Shown: positions 8,318 through 24,051 of the stretch, piece by piece
How positions within the stretch are numbered: the stretch's first letter is position 1
How the letters are laid out: every line of letters begins with the position of its first letter
Source of the DNA: a virus
Virus record (IMG/VR): IMGVR_UViG_3300021368_000083
Span: 1 to 32,409 of that record
Length of the DNA stretch: 32,409 nt
Direction: 5' to 3' (one strand)
Notes under the pieces: model-generated
What the model saw: only the letters and a program-made list of their open reading frames with translations
What the model was told of the DNA's origin: nothing
Database searches by the model: none
Position numbers and translations under genes: made by a program

Positions 8318-8325
8318 TATTTATT
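8318..8325 (-). promoter_or_regulatory. T4-type late promoter (AATAAATA)
   Basis: The minus strand reads AATAAATA, a NATAAATA late-promoter match, 26 bases before the ATG at 8292 and overlapping the stop of the upstream 42-residue gene. Its position matches the spacing seen at 1311, 8052 and 9014. Confidence 0.6.
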
Positions 8326-8449
8326 TAACACCCATCTTCTGTCCGTTATTATCCTTAATCTGTGGCATTACTTCCACAGTTTTCTTCTTTGACTTCCTTT
8401 CTTTGTCCTTAGACTCACACTCTTCACGTAGTTGTCTGAAGTTTTTCAT
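8321..8449 (-). CDS. Very small protein, MKNFRQLREE type
   Basis: A 42-residue gene beginning MKNFRQLREECESKDKE and ending NNGQKMGVK. It is supported by an ATGA overlap of its start (8449) with the stop of the 8446-8985 gene, an arrangement repeated throughout the window. The protein is very hydrophilic and lysine-rich with no predicted fold. Its N-terminus resembles that of the 70-residue protein at 9006-9218 (MKDFKKLREQ), and both recall the short capsid-targeting peptides of T4 internal proteins. Function unknown. Confidence 0.65.
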   Translation of the reverse strand: MKNFRQLREECESKDKERKSKKKTVEVMPQIKDNNGQKMGVK

Positions 8450-8985
8450 TTTTTCTTGCTCATTCCAATGATTTTACTGACCTTCTTACGACGTGCTAGA
8501 AGATACTTGTCGGACTTATCGTGATCTCCATCATTATCAACGTCCTTATCTTCCTTACCTACTGGGTCAAGTTTCTTTTCTTTGATCTCCTCACCTTCTG
8601 GTTCAAAACCTGCCTTAACACAGTTGTCAACACGCTTACCACCCTTCATCTTGGTGCCCATTTGCTTGTAACCTTTCCAGCAAGCTTTGCCATCAAGACC
8701 TTTCTTCTTCTCAATGATGATTACTTCACCATCAACTTCAATCTCTTCACGCTCAAGAACAACCTCTTCAGCAACTGACTTTTCTTTCTTGTCAATCTTT
8801 TTCTTTTTCTTGGTAACGTCCTCTACTTCAGCACCATGAGATTGAGGATCCATACCCTCAAATGCCTCAGGAATATTGCTACCTTGGAAGCAATCACCGT
8901 CCATCCATTGAGTATACATCTCCATTAGAGATGCAGAATAGGCATCATTATGCACTACTTTATTAACAGGTCTCTGCTTATCCAT
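8446..8985 (-). CDS. Acidic/basic low-complexity protein with EF-hand-like loop
   Basis: A 179-residue cyanophage protein. Residues 1-30 include a tryptophan-containing N-terminal region (LMEMYTQWMDGD). Residues 56-95 are a run of lysine and glutamate. A compact motif KKKGLDGKACWKGYKQMGTK with a second cysteine in VDNCVKAGF (residues 94-126) recurs, from memory, in several cyanophage proteins. Residues 148-159 (DVDNDGDHDKSD) fit an EF-hand/dockerin-type calcium loop, with D at 1, 3, 5, 7, 9 and 12 and G at 6, followed by a basic helix (KYLLARRKKVSKII). No catalytic motif is visible. A TATAAATA promoter lies 28 bases before the ATG at 8985, pointing to late, probably virion-related expression. 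Confidence 0.8.
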   Translation of the reverse strand: MDKQRPVNKVVHNDAYSASLMEMYTQWMDGDCFQGSNIPEAFEGMDPQSHGAEVEDVTKKKKKIDKKEKSVAEEVVLEREEIEVDGEVIIIEKKKGLDGKACWKGYKQMGTKMKGGKRVDNCVKAGFEPEGEEIKEKKLDPVGKEDKDVDNDGDHDKSDKYLLARRKKVSKIIGMSKKK

Positions 8986-9005: not shown

Positions 9006-9218
9006 CTATGGTTTATTTATAGCACGAATGTCTTTTACCCACTCTCTAAACATCCTTCCGTCCTCTGTAACCACAATTGCATAGTTCACACCAGTGCGAT
9101 GAACGGTTCCTTTGTCACCAGTTCTAGCAGACATAACGATATCTCCCTCAGAAATCACATCATTCTGACGATGTGCTTGGCGGAGTGCTTGTTCTCTCAG
9201 TTTCTTGAAATCTTTCAT
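9006..9218 (-). CDS. Small SH3/KOW-like domain protein
   Basis: A 70-residue protein with a charged N-terminal peptide, MKDFKKLREQALRQAHRQND, then a small beta-barrel-like domain. That domain reads GDIVMSARTGDKGTVHRTG, NYAIVVTEDGRMFREWV, a pattern of short strands and glycine turns like SH3 or KOW folds. The start at 9218 is fixed by ATGA overlap with the nucleotidyltransferase stop. The last ten codons contain the late promoter for the next gene. Related small proteins with an MKxFxxL beginning are frequent in cyanomyoviruses. A nucleic-acid or virion-binding role is possible; I assign no function. Confidence 0.75.
   Translation of the reverse strand: MKDFKKLREQALRQAHRQNDVISEGDIVMSARTGDKGTVHRTGVNYAIVVTEDGRMFREWVKDIRAINKP
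9014..9021 (-). promoter_or_regulatory. T4-type late promoter (TATAAATA)
   Basis: An exact TATAAATA on the minus strand, 29 bases before the ATG at 8985 and lying inside the 3' end of the 9006-9218 gene. The same spacing to the start codon is seen at the other NATAAATA sites. It would let the 8985-8321 genes be transcribed late, independently of the cassette upstream. Confidence 0.75.
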
Positions 9219-9778
9219 TTAAAATTAGCGGGCAAATTTGCCTTTATCTCTTGCATAAGAGCACGGCAATCATTATCATTTAATGCTCTAGGAATGCCAG
9301 AACGAAATGTTTTAAAGTCACCAGCAAATGCAGCGCGTCTCATTTTCGTTCCTGAAATAGCGAATGTATCACCATCAGCGTCTCTACTCCCAGAAGATTT
9401 TATTTCAATCTTCCTGAATGAGAAATCCTTTCCGTTATATTTATGGAGGAATTGCATAGCAGCAACTCTATCCGAACCTACAAGGAATATCACTTCATTA
9501 TATCCAGCAAGCATCAAATCCTGAAGGATAGCAACAGGTTGTTTTGGTCCAGAAAATATTTTACCACGATGTTCTGGGAACATCTTATTCATGTAATGTA
9601 ATTTGCGATCTGGTGGGAGAGGATTGCTACCTTTCTTATCTACAGTTTGTGAAATGTAGATGCGATAGTCGTGCGACCCTGCTGCTTGTTTCACACCAGC
9701 AAAATTCTCTTTATGTCCAGTTGTTGGTGGTTGAAACCTACCAAAAGTAAAATAACACTTGTTGCAATTTAACGCCAT
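9215..9778 (-). CDS. Nucleotidyltransferase of the HIGH-motif (cytidylyltransferase-like) superfamily
   Basis: This 187-residue enzyme belongs to the superfamily that transfers a nucleotide to phosphate-bearing substrates, such as NMN or phosphopantetheine adenylyltransferases and CTP-dependent cytidylyltransferases. The N-terminal nucleotide-binding signature is FTFGRFQPPTTGH at about residues 10-22, with TTGH as the HxGH motif. The C-terminal ISGTKMRRAA corresponds to the ISxTxxR motif. A Rossmann strand follows the substrate region (EVIFLVGSDRVAAMQFL). Related genes are common in cyanomyoviruses, but the substrate is not known. The ATG at 9778 overlaps the ligase-like gene by ten bases, so the two are coupled. 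NAD or nucleotide-sugar metabolism and RNA 5'-end chemistry are possible roles. Confidence 0.85.
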   Translation of the reverse strand: MALNCNKCYFTFGRFQPPTTGHKENFAGVKQAAGSHDYRIYISQTVDKKGSNPLPPDRKLHYMNKMFPEHRGKIFSGPKQPVAILQDLMLAGYNEVIFLVGSDRVAAMQFLHKYNGKDFSFRKIEIKSSGSRDADGDTFAISGTKMRRAAFAGDFKTFRSGIPRALNDNDCRALMQEIKANLPANFK

Positions 9779-10962
9779 TGCTTCTGAAGAGTAAAGTTAT
9801 TGTATGCAAACTCCATGCGATTGACAAACTTGATCATGCTGCCATCTTTGTGAAGAACATATCCTTCAGGAGTAGTAACCTTATATCCTTTTTCAGTCTG
9901 AACGTATGTTCTAAACTCTTCTAGGTGGTCAAGTTTATCTATAACCATTTGTTTAACTGCCTGAAGCTCTTTATATAAAGCAAGCATTGACTTGAATTTA
10001 TATACATTATCTACCACGTAATTCTGACTGCCATATACAAGATTTCTTTTTGCAGTTAGGTTCGCAACAGTTTTAATTTTTGATAGTTCCTTCTCCATCT
10101 TGTCACCATAGAAATTGAGCATGTCATACATCGCTTCATCTACATTTCCTATGCTACGAGCATTTTTAATTTCATTATTAAAAAATTGTTTGAGGTAAGA
10201 TGCTATATGAAATTTTTTATCTCCTGTTGTACCAGTTTTTGCTACCAATTCATCAAGAAAATCACCACACATCTGACACATGCGTTCAATCTTAGAGATG
10301 TAGTTATCAAACTTTTGCATCTCAGTTGATGTAAACCCAACCTTATGCATTGGAGTATCATTTTTTACTACTAAAGCATCATTAGACCCATCTACATCAG
10401 CTCCTGCAAGTGCTTGCATAGATTGAAAATCATCGCCTCTATAATGTGTATGAAATACTACTCCAATCTTTGCTCTACCTGCTGCTACTCCGATAGGATG
10501 GTCAGTAGGAATACCATATGTAATAGTATTAGGTCTAAAGGTATGCAGTTTTTCACCTTTAATAACTTCAGTCTTTAATGTTGAACTAGTAAACAATAAG
10601 TCTCCCTGTACTATCCCTTTTATACCTAGGGTAGAAAAGTATCTCAAAGAGAATTTTAATTTCTCTGCTAAATCTCCCTCATAATATAGATCAACATCAA
10701 CATCTGTATAACAAATCTTTGGTGTTTTTGCAAAGACAGATTTAGTACCAACAAAAAACATTCCACTGTTAGGATCTGTTCCACATATAACTGATGGAGC
10801 ACCATCCCACTTGGTTTGCATGAAACCACCACTATCTTCCTGACCTAACATCTTACGAAGTTCTTTTAAAAAAGATACAGCAGCTTTACAACCCTCAACT
10901 CCATAGTTAAGCATCTCATCTTCTAGATGTTCTAGGTGTTTTAGTTGTTTAATATTTGCCAT
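9769..10962 (-). CDS. Uncharacterised protein with ligase-like nucleotidyltransferase motifs
   Basis: A 397-residue protein of a cyanophage family without known function. By eye it carries the order of motifs of DNA/RNA ligases and capping enzymes. Motif I is K51-WDG (MQTKWDGAPSV). A GE-type motif III appears as IVQGDLLF (residues 117-124). Candidates for motif IV are NDALVVKND (193-202) and, nearer the end, EGYVLHKDG (366-374). A motif-V-like SMIKFVNR follows at 375-382. About 160 mainly helical residues (cysteine pair CQMC near 235) separate the two halves. If real, K51 would be the adenylated lysine. The start shares one base with the upstream stop (TAATG), and the next gene is another nucleotidyltransferase. 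The motif reading is inference; a structural or capsid-related role cannot be excluded. Confidence 0.55.
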   Translation of the reverse strand: MANIKQLKHLEHLEDEMLNYGVEGCKAAVSFLKELRKMLGQEDSGGFMQTKWDGAPSVICGTDPNSGMFFVGTKSVFAKTPKICYTDVDVDLYYEGDLAEKLKFSLRYFSTLGIKGIVQGDLLFTSSTLKTEVIKGEKLHTFRPNTITYGIPTDHPIGVAAGRAKIGVVFHTHYRGDDFQSMQALAGADVDGSNDALVVKNDTPMHKVGFTSTEMQKFDNYISKIERMCQMCGDFLDELVAKTGTTGDKKFHIASYLKQFFNNEIKNARSIGNVDEAMYDMLNFYGDKMEKELSKIKTVANLTAKRNLVYGSQNYVVDNVYKFKSMLALYKELQAVKQMVIDKLDHLEEFRTYVQTEKGYKVTTPEGYVLHKDGSMIKFVNRMEFAYNNFTLQKQWR

Positions 10963-12113
10963 TAGTCGTTAAATACCGTTGCAATACTTTCACCCTTCAT
11001 TTTGTATCCTGACTGTAACTTGTCTGGGTATACACGATCTGGATCTGCAGCAGACCCTTTATCTGAAGTATTTCTTATGTTGAAAGACATGTCAAGCAGT
11101 GGAGTTTTCAGATTAATATTGACTCTCTTTGCACCACCAGTTTCACCACCATATGATATTGATACATTACTAGCACTGGATGCTTTGTTCAAAAATGCCT
11201 CATCAATTTCCATATGTTTTATCTTACCTTTGTTAAGATGAACATAATGGAATCCATATCCCAAGGAACCTTTGATAAGTTCTTTCAACAATGCCTTGTT
11301 ATAGTTTGGAGAAGAATCTAATACTTTAAAGTTCCTATTCCCTGATTGGTATTCATTAAAAGTTCTACAAAATAATTCTTCATCTAATCCAAAAGTTTTC
11401 ATCAAAGCTTTACCAGCTTCGGTTGTAATCTGAGATGCTTTTACTTGATCAACTGGAAATACTTCTTTCTTCAATCCCAGATTAGATAGATTAGTAGTTC
11501 CACTCATCTTTAATGAGAGGTAATATTTGTGCAATGGTTTTCCTTTACACTTAGATTCTAAAGTTAAGTCAGTAACTGTAGCACCAATATTATATCCAGT
11601 TGATGGTGACGCAGTTCCTATTTGCCAATGTCCATTGACAATCTTCATAGGTCTAGGTTTATTTTCTGCACCTTCTGCAATTACTCTTATTGCAATACAA
11701 TCCTCAAGGTGATAATGTTTTACTAAACCGTAAATAAAATCTTTGTATTTGTTACTCGCTAAGTCGTCTGGATTTTCAATCCAGTCATTGATACCTGCTT
11801 CTAGTTGTTCTTCAAATAAATTACCTCTATTACCTGTACCACGATTACCTCTACTACCATCACCAAAGTCAAAATTGAGAGAGGTTAGTTTTAGTTTCCT
11901 TTTTATCTCTGCCTTTGTAAATTCTGTCTGTAATGCTCTAGCAATCTTTACTGCTTTTTTGTTACTCGGATTAAATGCAAGAGGATTCTCCATGCCATAT
12001 GTAGTGACAAGATAATTCCATAACCTCAATGCTTCTGCTGCTGCAGCATTATCCATATGCTTTACAGAAGAACCTGCATCAGAAAACGTAGACGGTATTA
12101 AATTATAAGCCAT
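10962..12113 (-). CDS. Uncharacterised protein, possible PD-(D/E)XK-type nuclease
   Basis: A 383-residue protein I do not recognise from a named family. After a helical N-terminal region there is a glycine/arginine-rich patch (GDGSRGNRGTGNRGN, 85-98). It is followed by FEEQLEAGIND (E101/E102), VTDLTLESK (D182, E186) and YYLSLKMSGTTN (K202). The order E, D, then xLK after a strand is what a PD-(D/E)XK nuclease core could look like, but serine stands where the acidic residue normally precedes the lysine, so the call is weak. The ATG at 12113 has an excellent GGGGAGG site seven bases upstream, formed by one arm of the preceding terminator. It is the first gene of a tightly overlapping cassette with two nucleotidyltransferase-like proteins. 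Confidence 0.5.
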   Translation of the reverse strand: MAYNLIPSTFSDAGSSVKHMDNAAAAEALRLWNYLVTTYGMENPLAFNPSNKKAVKIARALQTEFTKAEIKRKLKLTSLNFDFGDGSRGNRGTGNRGNLFEEQLEAGINDWIENPDDLASNKYKDFIYGLVKHYHLEDCIAIRVIAEGAENKPRPMKIVNGHWQIGTASPSTGYNIGATVTDLTLESKCKGKPLHKYYLSLKMSGTTNLSNLGLKKEVFPVDQVKASQITTEAGKALMKTFGLDEELFCRTFNEYQSGNRNFKVLDSSPNYNKALLKELIKGSLGYGFHYVHLNKGKIKHMEIDEAFLNKASSASNVSISYGGETGGAKRVNINLKTPLLDMSFNIRNTSDKGSAADPDRVYPDKLQSGYKMKGESIATVFND

Positions 12114-12149
12114 AAAAAAACCTCCCCGTCTAGTTATTTAGAGGGGAGG
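12114..12149 (-). terminator. Terminator of mazG that also supplies the next ribosome site
   Basis: On the minus strand the stem CCTCCCC (12149-12143) pairs with GGGGAGG (12127-12121), extended by TCTA/TAGA, and is followed by seven Ts (12120-12114). This is a textbook rho-independent terminator, nine bases after the mazG stop. The seven Ts run directly into the ATG of the next gene, so the downstream arm GGGGAGG is also a near-perfect ribosome-binding site at seven-base spacing. Formation of the stem would hide that site. Confidence 0.85.
12135..12142 (-). promoter_or_regulatory. Late-promoter-like element inside the terminator hairpin (TCTAAATA)
   Basis: The minus strand reads TCTAAATA, one mismatch from TATAAATA, within the upper stem and loop of the mazG terminator, 22 bases before the ATG at 12113. 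The distance to the start codon matches the exact late promoters at 1311, 8318 and 9014. It would explain how the cassette is transcribed after a terminator. The mismatch at the second position makes it tentative. Confidence 0.35.
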
Positions 12150-12563: not shown

Positions 12564-14141
12564 TTAAGAATAAATGTTTTGTTGTAGAAATTCGTAAGAT
12601 GTTGGAAGTGTAAGAACTTTTTCCTCTAGTATTTTAACATAGTTTCTAAATTCCTTGTAGAGTTTATCAACATCATCTTGAAGATTATCTTTCGCAGAAT
12701 CTGAGAAGACTTTATAAAGATAATCTGCATAAGGAACATGTCCCATGCCTGCCATGATATATGCAATACCATGTTTTTCAGGATCCCATCTGTGTGCTAG
12801 AGAATGCATCTGATGTACATTTTCATAGTGATTTGTTGATCCATTATCATATGAAATATGAACTTTTCTTTGTGCAAACAATCTAGGATCAGAAAGTTTA
12901 AACCAGTCTTTAAGTTCAGTTTGATATTTCCAGTAAGGAGTATCACTTCTTTGAGAAAGTTTATAATGAAGAGAAACAAAATACATGTATCCAGTTACAA
13001 CTAACTGACAAGTATAGTTGTAAGAGTCTCTATCAAAACCAGTAATATTATACTTACGTCTATCAAGAATTTCAATTAGTTGCTCAATCATTTCATGGGT
13101 AGACACAAGTCCTGTAGATTCTAGTGGTTCAATAAAACCAAACGCAAGACCTACACCAACTACATTTTTAACCCATCCTCTTTCTCTCACTCCATGTCGG
13201 ATATTAATCTTACGAATATCAATATCTTCATTACCTACATGTTTTTTAAACTCCTTTTCTGCATCATCATCACTGATAAAATCACTAGAGTAAACATATC
13301 CAGATCCCATACGATTCCATAAAGGAATATTCCATGACCATCCACTACTTAATGCTGTGCAATTGGTAACGTTGCAGAGCTCTGTCTTTTTATCTTTATA
13401 TGGTAAATGAGTTGCAATAGCTCTATCGTTATCTAACCATGGTTTGAAAGAAACAAACTCAGATCCCATTTCCTTTTCTAGGAGTAAAGATTTAAATCCA
13501 GTACAATCAACATACAGATCTGCAGAGTATTCAGTTCCAGAATCTCCAACTAAAGAAGTGATGTATCCGTCTTCATCTTTTTTTACGGCAACAACATCGT
13601 CAATGTAATGCTTTGCTTTCTTACAGAATCTTTTCTTAAGAAACTTTCCAAAAAGACCAGCATCAAAATGATATGCCGAATCTTTTTTCAATGAGAATTG
13701 AAATTCAAAACCAGGATTGTCAGTCATCCTATTATGTTTTGCTAACCAATAAGCCTGATTCATAAACTCATTGAAAGAGTCTGGTCCCAAATCATATTTT
13801 GCGCGGACAACAGACCACCTACCAAAAGAATCTTCATTATGATACCCTGCAAATGGGTATTCAAATACCTCACCATTACCATCTCTAAAATTAGTAAATC
13901 TAATTGAAGTTTTATAGGTGGCATTGCAATGAGGCATCCACTCTTTATCTTCAATTTCAAGAATATAATTCAAATAAGAATTAAATTTAGTAATAGTAGA
14001 TTCACCTACTCCAACTGGATTGGAATTCTTTCCTTCAATAACAGATACTTTAATATCTTTACCAAATTTTTTACATAAAGCAGCAGCAGTCATCCAACCA
14101 GATGACCCACCGCCAACAACCATAATACTTTTAATCTTCAT
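12564..14141 (-). CDS. FAD-dependent tryptophan-halogenase-like protein
   Basis: A 525-residue flavoprotein of the PrnA/tryptophan halogenase family, which uses FADH2, oxygen and halide to halogenate aromatic substrates. The FAD-binding GxGxxG-type loop is VVGGGSSGW (about residues 8-16). The GVGEST segment follows at 44-49, and a lysine in NATYKTSIRF (K77) stands where the catalytic lysine of PrnA is found. The diagnostic WxWxIP motif is intact as GWSWNIPL (268-273), and FIEPLESTG (about 336-344) supplies the conserved glutamate region. Length is as expected for PrnA-type enzymes. The start at 14141 is fixed by ATGA overlap with the gp41 stop. Genes like this are annotated in some cyanomyoviruses, but their substrate is unknown and a flavin reductase partner is not in this window. 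Confidence 0.92.
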   Translation of the reverse strand: MKIKSIMVVGGGSSGWMTAAALCKKFGKDIKVSVIEGKNSNPVGVGESTITKFNSYLNYILEIEDKEWMPHCNATYKTSIRFTNFRDGNGEVFEYPFAGYHNEDSFGRWSVVRAKYDLGPDSFNEFMNQAYWLAKHNRMTDNPGFEFQFSLKKDSAYHFDAGLFGKFLKKRFCKKAKHYIDDVVAVKKDEDGYITSLVGDSGTEYSADLYVDCTGFKSLLLEKEMGSEFVSFKPWLDNDRAIATHLPYKDKKTELCNVTNCTALSSGWSWNIPLWNRMGSGYVYSSDFISDDDAEKEFKKHVGNEDIDIRKINIRHGVRERGWVKNVVGVGLAFGFIEPLESTGLVSTHEMIEQLIEILDRRKYNITGFDRDSYNYTCQLVVTGYMYFVSLHYKLSQRSDTPYWKYQTELKDWFKLSDPRLFAQRKVHISYDNGSTNHYENVHQMHSLAHRWDPEKHGIAYIMAGMGHVPYADYLYKVFSDSAKDNLQDDVDKLYKEFRNYVKILEEKVLTLPTSYEFLQQNIYS

Positions 14142-15523
14142 ACATTCCACTCGGCAAATTTGGATAATCTAGTTTGGGATTCTGCAAACTGGGAGAACTG
14201 TTCTCCCGTATCTTCATCTGAAATATTAATTTCTGATGCGTCATCCGCTACATCATACAGCTTCATTTTTGATCTGTCAATTCCCACCATGAATTTTCGT
14301 GAGGCAGCGGTTTCATTGTATCTGTTTTTAAGTTGTTTGACCATGATGCGACCTTGTTGTTCCAACTCCTCAGTAGAGATAAGGGCAAACATAAGATCAG
14401 CAGTGGCAGGTAGACCAAAAGACTCAGAAGTATCGGTAAGATCTGGATCACTATTCCCATAACCAGAACGAGTAGTCTGAGTAGCACTAATAATAGGTAC
14501 GTTACACTCCACAGCAAAGCCACGGAGCTCCTCAGCAATCGCTTTAACATAGGTATACGAGTTAACAATCGCACCTTTGTACCTCACACTTGCACATATG
14601 TTTAAATAATCAATAAAAATAATATCGGGTTTGAAATCTTTCTTTAGTTTAAGATCACTTAAGAGTGCCCTGAAATGTCCTGCATGTGCAGACGCTGTTG
14701 GATACTCTTTAATGATAAGTTTGCCCTGAGTTTTACGAGCAATCTCATTAACTTTACTAGAGAAAAGAACTTCGGGTAGATCAGCAAGATCTCTAATACT
14801 AACGTTCAGAAGGTTTGCATCAATTCGTTCAGCAATTTTCTCCTCTGCCATTTCACATGTAATGTAGAGAACGTTCCTCCCCTGAGTGAGCGCGGCACCA
14901 GCGCAGTGGCACATGAATAGACTTTTCCCGACGCCTGTACCAGCAAGAGCGATGTTGAGAGTCTTATTAGGGAGACCACCTTTGGTAATGTAGTTAAACT
15001 TATCAAGGTCAAAGGGAATCTTTTCTTCTGTTCTGTGGTAGAAATCATATCTGTCTGTTGCTTGTTCTATGTAATCGTGTCCGATGTGTTCATCAAACGA
15101 AACCGCCAAGGCTTCTTGGAGAATGGAGGGTATCGCATCTCGCGAAATCTTCTGATCGCCGCCGTCCGCAATCTTGATTGATTGCATGAGTGCGAGGTAT
15201 ATAGCTCGGTCCTTGCACCACTTTTCTGTGGCGTCAAGCAACCAGTCGTAGTCAACCCACTCGTCCGAGAGGTTGGATACTGCCTGTACCGAATCTTTGA
15301 ACGATTCGTCAGTAAGATCATTACGGTTTTGTAGATTAATCGTAAGAACTTCTTTAGTAGGAACTTTATCGTACTTACTAGCGAAGTCAGCAATCTCTTC
15401 GTAGATAATTTTCTCATGGTAAATCTCATAATATTCTGCCTTTAAGAAAGGCACTACCTTACGATAATATTCTTCGTTAAAGAGAAGGTTTCGTAAAATA
15501 ATTTCTTCAATTCGTTCAGCCAT
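14138..15523 (-). CDS. 41: Replicative DNA helicase (T4 gp41-like, DnaB family)
   Basis: This 461-residue RecA-fold helicase unwinds DNA ahead of the phage polymerase and forms the primosome with gp61. The N-terminal helical domain spans about residues 1-165. The Walker A motif is LAGTGVGKSLF (193-203) and Walker B is PDIIFIDYLNI. A further conserved helicase motif includes ISATQTTRSGYGNSD. The C-terminus is acidic (SEINISDEDTGEQFSQ), as in T4-like helicases that bind partners. T4 gp41 is about 475 residues. The start shares a base with the methyltransferase stop (TAATG), and its stop overlaps the halogenase start (ATGA). It is thus part of one continuous block with polymerase, UvsX and the restriction-modification pair. 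Confidence 0.95.
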   Translation of the reverse strand: MAERIEEIILRNLLFNEEYYRKVVPFLKAEYYEIYHEKIIYEEIADFASKYDKVPTKEVLTINLQNRNDLTDESFKDSVQAVSNLSDEWVDYDWLLDATEKWCKDRAIYLALMQSIKIADGGDQKISRDAIPSILQEALAVSFDEHIGHDYIEQATDRYDFYHRTEEKIPFDLDKFNYITKGGLPNKTLNIALAGTGVGKSLFMCHCAGAALTQGRNVLYITCEMAEEKIAERIDANLLNVSIRDLADLPEVLFSSKVNEIARKTQGKLIIKEYPTASAHAGHFRALLSDLKLKKDFKPDIIFIDYLNICASVRYKGAIVNSYTYVKAIAEELRGFAVECNVPIISATQTTRSGYGNSDPDLTDTSESFGLPATADLMFALISTEELEQQGRIMVKQLKNRYNETAASRKFMVGIDRSKMKLYDVADDASEINISDEDTGEQFSQFAESQTRLSKFAEWNV

Positions 15524-16374
15524 TAGAATTTAATTTTTGCAAATGATTTTTCACTCAACCTTTTCTGAATTAGTCTACCATAATCTTCATGTAATTCGCA
15601 ACCCAGATAGTGCCTTTGTAATGATTTGGATACTAAAGCAGTTGTACCAGATCCCATAAAAGGATCTAATACAATGTCACCTTCTTCACTTCCAGATTTA
15701 ATACACGGTTCAATTAGTTCTGGTGGATACACAGCAAAGTGTGCTCCTTTATATGGTTTGGTTTTAACTTCCCACACAGTTTTCTTACGCTTCAATCCTT
15801 TACCATCTACAGTTGGTTCTTTGATAGCATCAACATCAAAATAATAATTCTGACTTTTGCTAAACAAAAAGATATACTCATGTGATTTAGTACATCTATC
15901 TCGTACACTTTCAGGCATAGGATTAGGTTTATTCCAGATAATATCTTGTCTTAGATACCATCCGTCTGCTCTCATAGCAAAAGCAAACATCCAAGGAATA
16001 CCAATAAGATCTTTTTCTTTAAGACCTTCTAGTTTGTTACCTCGTCTAGCACATGTGCTAGGTAAATCTTGGTTAGTTTTAGATACTGATTGTTTATGAA
16101 TTGCTTGTCCTTTACCTGGTCTATAGTTATAGTAACTATCACCAAGATTAACCCAGCATGTTCCATCATCAGTAAGACAATTTCTTACCTCACGAAATAC
16201 TTTTACGAGATTGTCAACATATTCTTCTGGTGTTTGTTCCAGACCAATTTGATCTTGTTCACCACCATAGTTTCTCAAACCATAATAAGGCGGTGATGTT
16301 ACACACATCCTCGCCTTACCAGTAAACTCTTTTAATGTTTCACGACAATCACCAAAGAGAATTGTGTCCTTCAA
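15523..16374 (-). CDS. Site-specific DNA methyltransferase, beta class (probable cytosine-N4)
   Basis: A 283-residue SAM-dependent DNA methyltransferase. Catalytic motif IV is TSPPYY (residues 26-31); SPPY is usual for cytosine-N4 enzymes, while adenine-N6 enzymes generally have DPPY. The SAM-binding motif I lies near the end as DPFMGSGTT (237-245). This order, catalytic motif first with a target-recognition region between, is the beta class. The start is TTG at 16374, which overlaps the nuclease stop as TTGA; the next ATG (residue 23) would remove the N-terminal GDCRETL region. It directly follows an MvaI/BcnI-like nuclease; enzymes of that family are partnered by N4-cytosine methyltransferases. 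The likely job is protecting phage DNA from that nuclease and perhaps from host enzymes. Confidence 0.93.
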   Translation of the reverse strand: MKDTILFGDCRETLKEFTGKARMCVTSPPYYGLRNYGGEQDQIGLEQTPEEYVDNLVKVFREVRNCLTDDGTCWVNLGDSYYNYRPGKGQAIHKQSVSKTNQDLPSTCARRGNKLEGLKEKDLIGIPWMFAFAMRADGWYLRQDIIWNKPNPMPESVRDRCTKSHEYIFLFSKSQNYYFDVDAIKEPTVDGKGLKRKKTVWEVKTKPYKGAHFAVYPPELIEPCIKSGSEEGDIVLDPFMGSGTTALVSKSLQRHYLGCELHEDYGRLIQKRLSEKSFAKIKF

Positions 16375-17060
16375 TTTAGAGTCTCCTTAACAAATAATTT
16401 ATCCATATCTTCGTGACGGATACGAAAAGCAGTACCACGATTTCTTACTCCCTTACCTTTATTATACTGAGTGTAAAGTCTGAAGTCAATAGAAATTACA
16501 TCTTCTTCAATTAACTCTTTGAACTTTTCTTTTGTAGTTCCTTTAAACAAGTATGCTTTATTATAATGAAAGTATTCAACACCTCCAATCTTTTTTGTCT
16601 CTGCTAATACTTTAATACAATTAGGAAATTTCTTACCAAATTGCTCTACCAACTGAGTCCAATTCCATTTTACAATGGTGACATCTTTACATTTAACATA
16701 GAGATGCTCTTCATCAGTTTCAAAATAATACCCTCTCTTGTTAGGTGTTTTTTTAACTGTAGATTGAGCAGTTTTTTCACCAACATATTTGGTATGTGGG
16801 AATCCATATCCCTCAAGAAATTCAATTTGTGTCATTTGCCACTCACCTTCTTTGTTGAAGAGAGTTTGTAGTCCACTAGCAGTTGCTCGCTTAACTTTTA
16901 ATTCGTTACCTTCAATGTCTGGTCCTGCTATGTTATTTTCTTGCAGTCCCAATTCATCTTCAAATGTATTACCAACAGCACCATCACCTTTACGTTGAGA
17001 TTTAATAAATCCCTTTTCTTTAATAGTTTTGTACTTAGTAATAAATTCAGAATAGTTCAT
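16371..17060 (-). CDS. Type II restriction endonuclease, MvaI/BcnI family
   Basis: A 229-residue nuclease with the signature of MvaI/BcnI-type enzymes, which cut CCNGG-like sites. The N-terminal GFIKSQRKGDGAVGNTFEDELG carries the conserved RKGD...GNTFE block with glutamate E34. The catalytic PD-(D/E)XK core is D48-x4-E53-L-K55 in PDIEGNELKVK, with the spacing I recall for MvaI. The C-terminal half has AETKKIGGVEYFHYNKAYLF and ends with RNRGTAFRIRHED, the GTAFRI block typical of the family. All catalytic residues look intact and the length fits (about 230-250). It starts one base into the uvsX stop (TAATG), and its stop overlaps the methyltransferase start. The exact target cannot be read from sequence. 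Confidence 0.88.
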   Translation of the reverse strand: MNYSEFITKYKTIKEKGFIKSQRKGDGAVGNTFEDELGLQENNIAGPDIEGNELKVKRATASGLQTLFNKEGEWQMTQIEFLEGYGFPHTKYVGEKTAQSTVKKTPNKRGYYFETDEEHLYVKCKDVTIVKWNWTQLVEQFGKKFPNCIKVLAETKKIGGVEYFHYNKAYLFKGTTKEKFKELIEEDVISIDFRLYTQYNKGKGVRNRGTAFRIRHEDMDKLFVKETLN

Positions 17061-22901: not shown

Positions 22902-23041
22902 TAGAATTTAGCAGTGACTCCAACAATTTTCGCATTGGGGTTGCGAGCAAGAGCAACTTGACGTGCTTCTTGATAATCACGAGCATGAACCTGCTCCTTA
23001 AAAACGGTTCCTGCTACGTAGAGGGTGACTTCACATTTCAT
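22901..23041 (-). CDS. Small conserved protein (MKCEVTLYVAGTVFKEQV type)
   Basis: A 46-residue gene with the sequence type MKCEVTLYVAGTVFKEQV, ARDYQEARQVALARNPNA, IVGVTAKF, which I recall from other cyanomyoviruses. The pattern is two strands, one helix and a final strand, a compact alpha/beta fold. Its start at 23041 lies 11 bases inside the end of dam, and its stop shares a base with the start of the membrane protein gene. No catalytic motif is seen. Position between dam and gp62 suggests expression with the replication set. Confidence 0.8.
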   Translation of the reverse strand: MKCEVTLYVAGTVFKEQVHARDYQEARQVALARNPNAKIVGVTAKF

Positions 23042-23870
23042 AATTAAAAAGGACTAGTTCCTTACGAGACGCTTGATCTATATTATAACTCCCCACAGAG
23101 CGCATGGTGTAAGTGTGTGCAAATTCCGCAACTGTCCACTCCTTAAAACGGTCACGAATCATCTGAGACGAATTGTAAGATATAAGTTGAGGACCGACAA
23201 AACGGTCACAAATAGTAGCAAACCCATCATGGTCAAATCCTTTGTGCATACTTCCACGCTTACCATATAAATTGGATCCGATTTCATAGGGTGGATCAAG
23301 GTAGGTGAATATGTTTTTGTCATCAGTAAGGAGTTCTTGGTAGCGACCATTAGTAATCTTCCAATTTTCAATTAGTTCTGTATATGCTGGCAATCTTTCA
23401 ATTCCACGCATTGAAAAATTAGATTCAGATGCTTGCTTAGAGAATGATGAAGACTCAGTTAAACCAGAGAAACTACACTTGTTAATAACATAGAAAGCAC
23501 AAGCACGATATAGATGAGAAGTGTCAGAATCATTTACAAGATCTTTTGCTTCTTCAAACAATCCACGTGCAGATTCTTGATCTGGATACCTAGACTTTAG
23601 TTCTTGAAGACGTTTGTACATGTTGTACCCATCGTCCTGCAAAGTCTTCCAAAAATTAGTCAACGGTTCATACAAATCGTTGACCCAAATATTCAGTCTA
23701 GGATATCTTTTAGTAACCTCAAGGGCGACACTACCGCCGCCCAAGAAAGGTTCACGATACTCTGTTACCTGGGAAAGGTCTGGGAGGAATCGGAACAGGT
23801 TTGCCAGAGCCCTGCTCTTGCCGCCTGGGTACCTCAGGGGTGTCTTCAGTGATTTCAAAGTTTGGGGCAT
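23031..23870 (-). CDS. dam: DNA adenine-N6 methyltransferase (Dam, D12 class)
   Basis: A 279-residue SAM-dependent enzyme of the Dam family, which methylates adenine in GATC-like sites. The SAM-binding N-terminal motif is PLRYPGGKSRAL, followed by REPFLGGGSVAL. The DNA-contact region includes INKCSFSGLTESSSFS, and the catalytic motif IV is YLDPPYE. Length is close to Dam enzymes (T4 Dam is about 259, E. coli 278). The start is ATG at 23870; a TTG 18 bases upstream is possible. The first 119 bases overlap the upstream HTH-like gene, which is unusual even here. It may protect phage DNA from host nucleases. This and the SPPY-type enzyme give the phage two methyltransferases of different class. 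Confidence 0.95.
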   Translation of the reverse strand: MPQTLKSLKTPLRYPGGKSRALANLFRFLPDLSQVTEYREPFLGGGSVALEVTKRYPRLNIWVNDLYEPLTNFWKTLQDDGYNMYKRLQELKSRYPDQESARGLFEEAKDLVNDSDTSHLYRACAFYVINKCSFSGLTESSSFSKQASESNFSMRGIERLPAYTELIENWKITNGRYQELLTDDKNIFTYLDPPYEIGSNLYGKRGSMHKGFDHDGFATICDRFVGPQLISYNSSQMIRDRFKEWTVAEFAHTYTMRSVGSYNIDQASRKELVLFNYEM

Positions 23871-24051
23871 TGTACTTAAGGTATTCAAAGAATGTCATTT
23901 TCAACTCCTTCTGGGTCATACCGCAATGTTTTGCTGCGGTAGGTAGATTCATTGTAGCATAAAAAAGTCCTTCATGAGCTTCTTTTACATTTTCAGGAGT
24001 TGTCTTTTTATTCAACGGAATTCGCAACTCATCATAACTTCTGTTAAACAT
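23752..24051 (-). CDS. Small HTH-like protein downstream of gp44
   Basis: A 99-residue protein with a conserved cyanophage beginning, MFNRSYDELRIPLNKKTTPEN, and a helix-turn-helix-like segment at about residues 25-52 (LFYATMNLPTAAKHCGMTQK, ELKMTFFEYLKY). Residues after about 68 (TPEVPRRQEQGSGKPVPIPP) are proline- and glycine-rich and lie wholly over the start of dam. They read like an out-of-frame extension, so the ancestral protein probably ended near residue 68. The ATG at 24051 lies 40 bases inside the end of gp44. The HTH suggests DNA binding and a regulatory job, not proven. Confidence 0.8.
   Translation of the reverse strand: MFNRSYDELRIPLNKKTTPENVKEAHEGLFYATMNLPTAAKHCGMTQKELKMTFFEYLKYNAPNFEITEDTPEVPRRQEQGSGKPVPIPPRPFPGNRVS

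Follow-up and report, generated by a model that had tools for sequence, protein, structure and literature searches.

In a 32,409-nucleotide stretch of viral DNA from a T4-like cyanophage (IMG/VR record IMGVR_UViG_3300021368_000083, positions 1 to 32,409; hereafter the window), four overlapping minus-strand genes, P0001 to P0004 (Table 1), appear to form a late, at least partly virion-packaged cassette for nucleic-acid processing, whose first gene encodes a predicted nuclease that is swapped between phages. We put the chances of this reading at about even, and infer the enzyme activity and the substrate. The original prediction, made from the sequence of the window, had suggested a nucleic-acid end-processing, RNA-repair or NAD-linked module of a possible PD-(D/E)XK protein, a KxDG ligase-like protein, a HIGH-motif nucleotidyltransferase and a small SH3-like protein. 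Structure prediction and motif conservation support the nuclease-like, ligase-like and nucleotidyltransferase-like character of the first three proteins, whereas the first gene is not constant in relatives.

The AlphaFold2 model of P0001 (predicted local distance difference test, pLDDT, 87.1) matches MspI in a Foldseek search (probability 0.98, E 1.8e-3), and VIA-align places HinP1I first (Z 9.7 over 213 residues), followed by MspI (Z 8.1), Holliday-junction resolvases (Z 5.0-5.6) and EcoRV. The matches to HinP1I and MspI extend over the predicted fold of residues 85-378 and include an Asp located about 18 residues before the x-x-K strand motif; hence, P0001 is assigned as a PD-(D/E)XK-type protein and a predicted nuclease, an assignment that is strongly supported by the model. 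In an alignment of 38 sequences, E101, D182, S200 and K202 are invariant, so that a Ser occupies the acidic position of the (D/E)-x-K motif, as it does in other slot families, i.e. the families found at the position of P0001 in related phages. In HinP1I and MspI, too, the residue before x-K is non-acidic. P0001 differs from both enzymes in having Ser there, in its late-type promoter and in being one among many swapped families. Neither P0001 nor the other slot families could be given a function from Pfam, PHROGs, NCBIfam or PADLOC, and profile searches of the Protein Data Bank (PDB) with P0001, P0002 and the slot family F1 gave nothing convincing. The P-SSM4 protein PSSM4_153 was considered as a further relative of P0001 and was rejected, as the alignment between the two was unconvincing.

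The open reading frames (ORFs) located just upstream of P0002 relatives cluster into 16 groups, two or three of which are perhaps not true slot genes. Across the loci, the slot gene is exchanged among about a dozen families, while P0002, P0003 and P0004 are constant. Among the eight groups tested, seven contain exactly one [SDEQNT]-x-K triplet conserved to at least 90%; each of these triplets is S-x-K, and a conserved Asp precedes it by 13-39 positions. Conservation in the eighth group (F8) was too low for this test. Even F1, whose members share on average 29% pairwise identity and in which just 19 columns reach 90% conservation, keeps the D...S-x-K signature. HHalign linked only some pairs of groups, and detected no homology between P0001 and F1.

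In front of this hypervariable slot lies a conserved leader. It reads CCTCCCC-TCTAAATAACTAGAC-GGGGAGG, followed by seven T and the ATG of P0001, and folds into a hairpin (minimum free energy -17.6 kcal/mol, z -3.05) whose 3' arm, GGGGAGG, doubles as the Shine-Dalgarno sequence and whose loop holds the T4-type late-promoter-like CTAAATA. The hairpin is terminator-like because of the T-run after the stem. These elements bear out the strong terminator with promoter-like and ribosome-site elements that had been noted upstream of the cassette, and the late promoter noted downstream of it is present as an exact TATAAATA word, although with four occurrences in the window against 2.0 expected this word is, by count alone, not rarer than chance. 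A scan of the window found the leader to be the sole hairpin around TAAATA with a G+C-rich stem and a terminal T-run; three weaker TAAATA hairpins lack both features, and 0.6 of any strength would be expected in Markov-resampled sequence.

The leader recurs in relatives. TAAATA is located within 62 nt of the slot-gene start in 184 of 193 cases, and a hairpin around TAAATA with a Shine-Dalgarno sequence in its 3' arm is found at 110 of the 193 slot starts, comprising 38 distinct stems, versus 43 of 1514 other ORF starts, a control rate that is if anything too high, as it includes some alternative starts of the same genes. When viral contigs were searched with the DNA pattern of the leader alone, 48 loci were left after removal of duplicates. 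Wherever enough flanking sequence was available, the element follows mazG or lies at a contig edge, and a slot gene and then P0002 come after it; the slot gene belongs to the P0001 family in 11 of these loci and to other families in 36. Comparison of relatives thus shows a hypervariable slot behind a conserved lock.

The T4 genes e, soc, 49 and I-TevI have their Shine-Dalgarno sequences within a hairpin, with a late promoter in its 5' side or loop, and late transcripts of gene e begin inside the hairpin structure and are translated (PMC3014915). The cassette leader shares with the gene e-type lock both the sequestered Shine-Dalgarno sequence and the late promoter within the hairpin, and differs from the four T4 locks in the T-run that follows it, so that it may also terminate transcription. 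By analogy with gene e, the cassette is probably expressed late. The same features could belong to a late DNA-maturation module, in which the slot nuclease would resolve branches or junctions as a substitute for T4 endonuclease VII (gp49), the ligase-like protein would seal nicks before or during packaging, and the nucleotidyltransferase would be a passenger or helper. The late-type promoter, the location before head genes, the similar hairpin lock of T4 gene 49, the resolvase matches of the P0001 model and the listing of endonuclease VII in only 5 of 16 cyanophage genomes (PMC3037559) are in agreement with such a role. HinP1I and MspI are, however, clearly better matches than the resolvases, and swapping among about a dozen families would not be expected for a structure-specific housekeeping enzyme, which makes this explanation unlikely.

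The HinP1I/MspI-like fold and the hypervariability of the slot also raise the idea of a restriction-like weapon directed at a short site in the DNA of hosts or competitors, a site that the phage genome itself avoids. In line with this idea, the window contains no TCGA (61 expected) and no CCGG (20 expected); GGCC occurs twice (16 expected). The avoidance is real, yet it does not track the slot family. In cyanophages with unrelated slot families CCGG and GGCC are depleted and TCGA is absent, while TCGA is present at two loci (L010, L011) encoding slot proteins with 88-90% identity to P0001. Site avoidance was therefore rejected as a readout of slot nuclease specificity, and fixed-site restriction is unsupported. 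Nor does a cognate methyltransferase adjoin P0001, as expected for a type II restriction-modification system, since its neighbors are mazG and P0002. Altogether, a restriction weapon seems quite improbable.

P0002 is a full-length member of the Pfam family DUF6267 (E 2e-121), and a literature search on DUF6267 yielded no account of its function. In 60 aligned sequences, the invariant residues include K51, W52, D53, G54, Q119, G120, D121, H171, Y174, E366, G367, V369 and K378, and the motif I Lys (KxDG) is followed by motifs III, IIIa and IV in order. KWDG, VQGD, EGYV and IKxxN parallel motifs I, III, IV and V of Rnl2, which read KIHG, VFGE, EGYV and IKxKN in the Rnl2 alignment. For the predicted structure (pLDDT 89.9), VIA-align ranks a Naegleria RNA ligase first and then T4 Rnl2 (Z 6.1) and mostly DNA ligases, and the first named matches outside the protein's own family in BFVD are RNA ligases; a Foldseek search against the PDB alone gave no significant match. 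P0002 thus resembles the ATP-dependent RNA ligases in its motif order (KxDG, VxGD/E, EGYV, IKxxN) and in its best structural matches, and differs from them by a helical insert, about 130 residues long, that separates motif IIIa from motif IV, and by ending without a domain after motif V. Hence, its prediction as ligase-like is moderately supported, and it is not placed in any named ligase family.

P0003 carries the motifs FGRFQPPTTGH and ISGTKMR, which are invariant across diverse relatives and place it in the HIGH superfamily; its assignment as a HIGH nucleotidyltransferase, predicted from fold and motifs, is well supported. It matches PHROG cytidyltransferases, and its similarity to nicotinamide mononucleotide (NMN) adenylyltransferases is weak. 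The GRFxPPTxGH and ISxTxxR motifs are shared with nicotinamide-nucleotide adenylyltransferases and other HIGH enzymes, and virion relatives are named NMN adenylyltransferase (NMNAT) in several papers. P0003 might hence act as an NMN adenylyltransferase, raising NAD+ or opposing an NAD-depleting defence, with the ligase-like protein using, or being served by, its activity. In NCBIfam, however, it falls far short of the equivalog cut-offs (nadR, 18.8 bits versus 341), the PDB profile that it matches best is that of the UPF0348 protein MJ0951, and the nuclease would be left unexplained; we regard such an NAD module as decidedly unlikely. A further difference from nicotinamide-nucleotide adenylyltransferases and other HIGH enzymes is that P0003 relatives occur in virions and as fusions with P0002 or P0004 relatives. 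The P0004 family (70-90 amino acids) is called 'ribonucleotide reductase alpha subunit' or 'NrdB' in GenBank and PHROGs, which looks like a propagated misannotation; the P0004 sequence gives no support for the former name.

The coordinates of the four ORFs confirm the overlaps of 1, 10 and 4 bases, in transcription order, that had been described, and the overlaps are kept in relatives, where the start of P0003 precedes the P0002 end by 10 nt in 125 cases and by 4 nt in 27. Several hundred cyanophage records contain genes of the cassette, and the cultured phages S-RSM4 and Sf-CH1b have the full set of four. P0003 lies after P0002 or is fused to it in 179 of 192 loci, the fusions numbering three (S-PM2, L187, L200), and 16 distinct fusions place a P0004 relative on the C-terminal side of a P0003 relative. 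The expectation that all four genes stay together holds for P0002-P0003-P0004 and fails for the first gene, which is exchanged for other nuclease-like families.

The family of P0003, T4-GC190, is a cyanophage core gene whose product was determined experimentally, by mass spectrometry of purified virions, to be a virion protein of S-SM1 (PMC3037559), and NMNAT-like or cytidylyltransferase proteins were reported in the virions of S-SCSM1, S-CBWM1, S-SZBM1 and S-CREM2 (PMC9602691, PMC10665884). Detection in virions had been named beforehand as a result that would speak against a processing module; it applies to P0003 relatives, yet the enzyme assignment stands, and the reading moves to that of a virion-carried enzyme. 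The internal proteins of T4 share an N-terminal capsid-targeting sequence (CTS) and are loaded into the head, and T-even internal proteins are diverse (PMC3012670). Using a pattern based on the T4 internal proteins, T4-like capsid-targeting N-termini were found in 16 of 93 P0002 relatives (17%) and 28 of 169 P0003 relatives (17%), compared to 15 of 711 other ORFs (2%), counts for which p values are not meaningful because the sequences are related. In one clade (L180, L192, L194, L195, L203), adenylate-kinase-like and zeta/polynucleotide-kinase-like P-loop proteins are encoded downstream of the DUF6267 gene, and a Pol-beta-like nucleotidyltransferase domain is fused to the P0003-type HIGH domain; most of these extra proteins have capsid-targeting-like N-termini. 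Some P0002 and P0003 relatives hence resemble the T4 internal proteins in their N-terminal start, whereas the cassette set looks enzymatic and T4 IPI inhibits a restriction enzyme. Published work shows packaging for P0003 relatives only; for P0001 and P0002 we infer it. The virion detection, the capsid-targeting-like starts and the adjoining head-protein genes would also fit proteins that act solely in the head core, as scaffold or filler with their folds as relics. However, even in families that have diverged widely, the residues of the catalytic motifs rank with the best-conserved positions, which makes this explanation highly unlikely.

Several observations weigh against a packaged, ligase-containing cassette. 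Motif V of P0002 is K-x-V rather than K-x-K (K378 is invariant, the second position is V380), its best VIA-align Z is only 7.3 (172 residues), below 8, and HHalign did not detect ligase homology in a comparison with phage Rnl2 (probability 0.2). The authors of the proteome studies allow that the NMNAT-like virion proteins could be carry-over (PMC9602691, PMC10665884), and relatives of P0001 or P0002 are not reported in the main texts of the virion proteome studies considered here. The 17% figure draws on related sequences, and P0001-P0003 of the window themselves lack a capsid-targeting-like start (N-termini MAYNLIPS, MANIKQLK and MALNCNKC), which also sets them apart from the T4 internal proteins.

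For the late processing cassette, the following sequence of events would be consistent with the data. Read-through transcripts from gp43-uvsX-gp41-mazG would meet the hairpin, where they may terminate and where the ribosome-binding site would be hidden. As in T4 gene e, the late promoter in the loop may start transcripts just past the 5' arm, and we propose that the late mRNA is therefore translatable. The first gene would then supply a PD-(D/E)XK nuclease that is continually exchanged between phages, the second a ligase-like adenylyltransferase, and the third a HIGH nucleotidyltransferase, with virion-carried relatives, that is fused to the small fourth domain or encoded before it. The proteins may act together, and their substrate would be nucleic acid that is broken or targeted, most likely as the head contents enter the next host. 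More specifically, and only tentatively, the slot would exchange highly divergent S-x-K PD-(D/E)XK nucleases behind the conserved late lock and before a fixed ligase-nucleotidyltransferase pair, the set being injected with the DNA as an arms-race weapon or a repair kit.

Table 1. Features of the cassette and of other genes in the window (aa, amino acids).
Feature	Position	Strand	Description
P0001	10962-12113	-	383 aa; PD-(D/E)XK nuclease-like protein, predicted HinP1I/MspI-like fold; variable slot; conserved E101, D182, S200-x-K202
P0002	9769-10962	-	397 aa; Pfam DUF6267; ligase-like motifs K51xDG, D121, Y174, E366G, K378; helical insert ~212-345
P0003	9215-9778	-	187 aa; predicted HIGH-superfamily nucleotidyltransferase (GRFQPPTTGH, ISGTKMR); PHROG cytidyltransferase; T4-GC190 relative
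P0004	9006-9218	-	70 aa; small domain; in many cyanophages fused C-terminal to the nucleotidyltransferase
Leader lock	12111-12149	-	5' arm CCTCCCC 12143-12149; CTAAATA 12135-12141 in loop; 3' arm GGGGAGG 12121-12127; T7 12114-12120; ATG 12111-12113
Late promoter word TATAAATA	9014-9021	-	Exact match, T4-type; overlaps the end of P0004, precedes gene 8446-8985
Lysine-rich and MKNFRQLREE proteins	8321-8985	-	Lysine-rich protein with GKACWKGYKQMGTKMKGGKRVDNCV and DVDNDGDHDKSD motifs; short MKNFRQLREE protein
Tryptophan halogenase-like gene	12564-14150	-	Pfam E 9e-102; between gp41 and mazG
MvaI/BcnI-family restriction endonuclease gene	16371-17060	-	Pfam E 2e-46; beside N6_N4 DNA methylase gene
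Endonuclease and N6_N4 DNA methylase genes together	15523-17060	-	Between uvsX and gp41
D12-class N6-adenine DNA methyltransferase gene	23031-23888	-	Pfam E 5e-29

On the 5' side of the cassette, the neighbors in transcription order are uvsX, the MvaI/BcnI-type gene and its adjoining N6/N4 methyltransferase gene, the gp41 helicase gene, the tryptophan halogenase gene and mazG, and on the 3' side genes for lysine-rich proteins and a head protein follow. PHROG families join segments like those of the lysine-rich and MKNFRQLREE proteins to P0003 and P0004 relatives. The order gp43-uvsX-gp41-mazG-cassette-head protein genes is retained in cultured relatives, and in Syn9, S-SM1 and Sf-CH1b gp61-nrdA is also in the retained order. 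A D12-class methyltransferase gene lies elsewhere in the window.

If correct, the reading of a late, virion-associated cassette would provide a reason for the presence of an NMNAT-like enzyme in cyanophage virions, connect this enzyme with a nuclease and a ligase, and reveal a slot for exchanged nucleases in very abundant marine phages. The cassette also offers a testable leader switch and a new, diverse set of predicted S-x-K nucleases and candidate DUF6267 enzymes.

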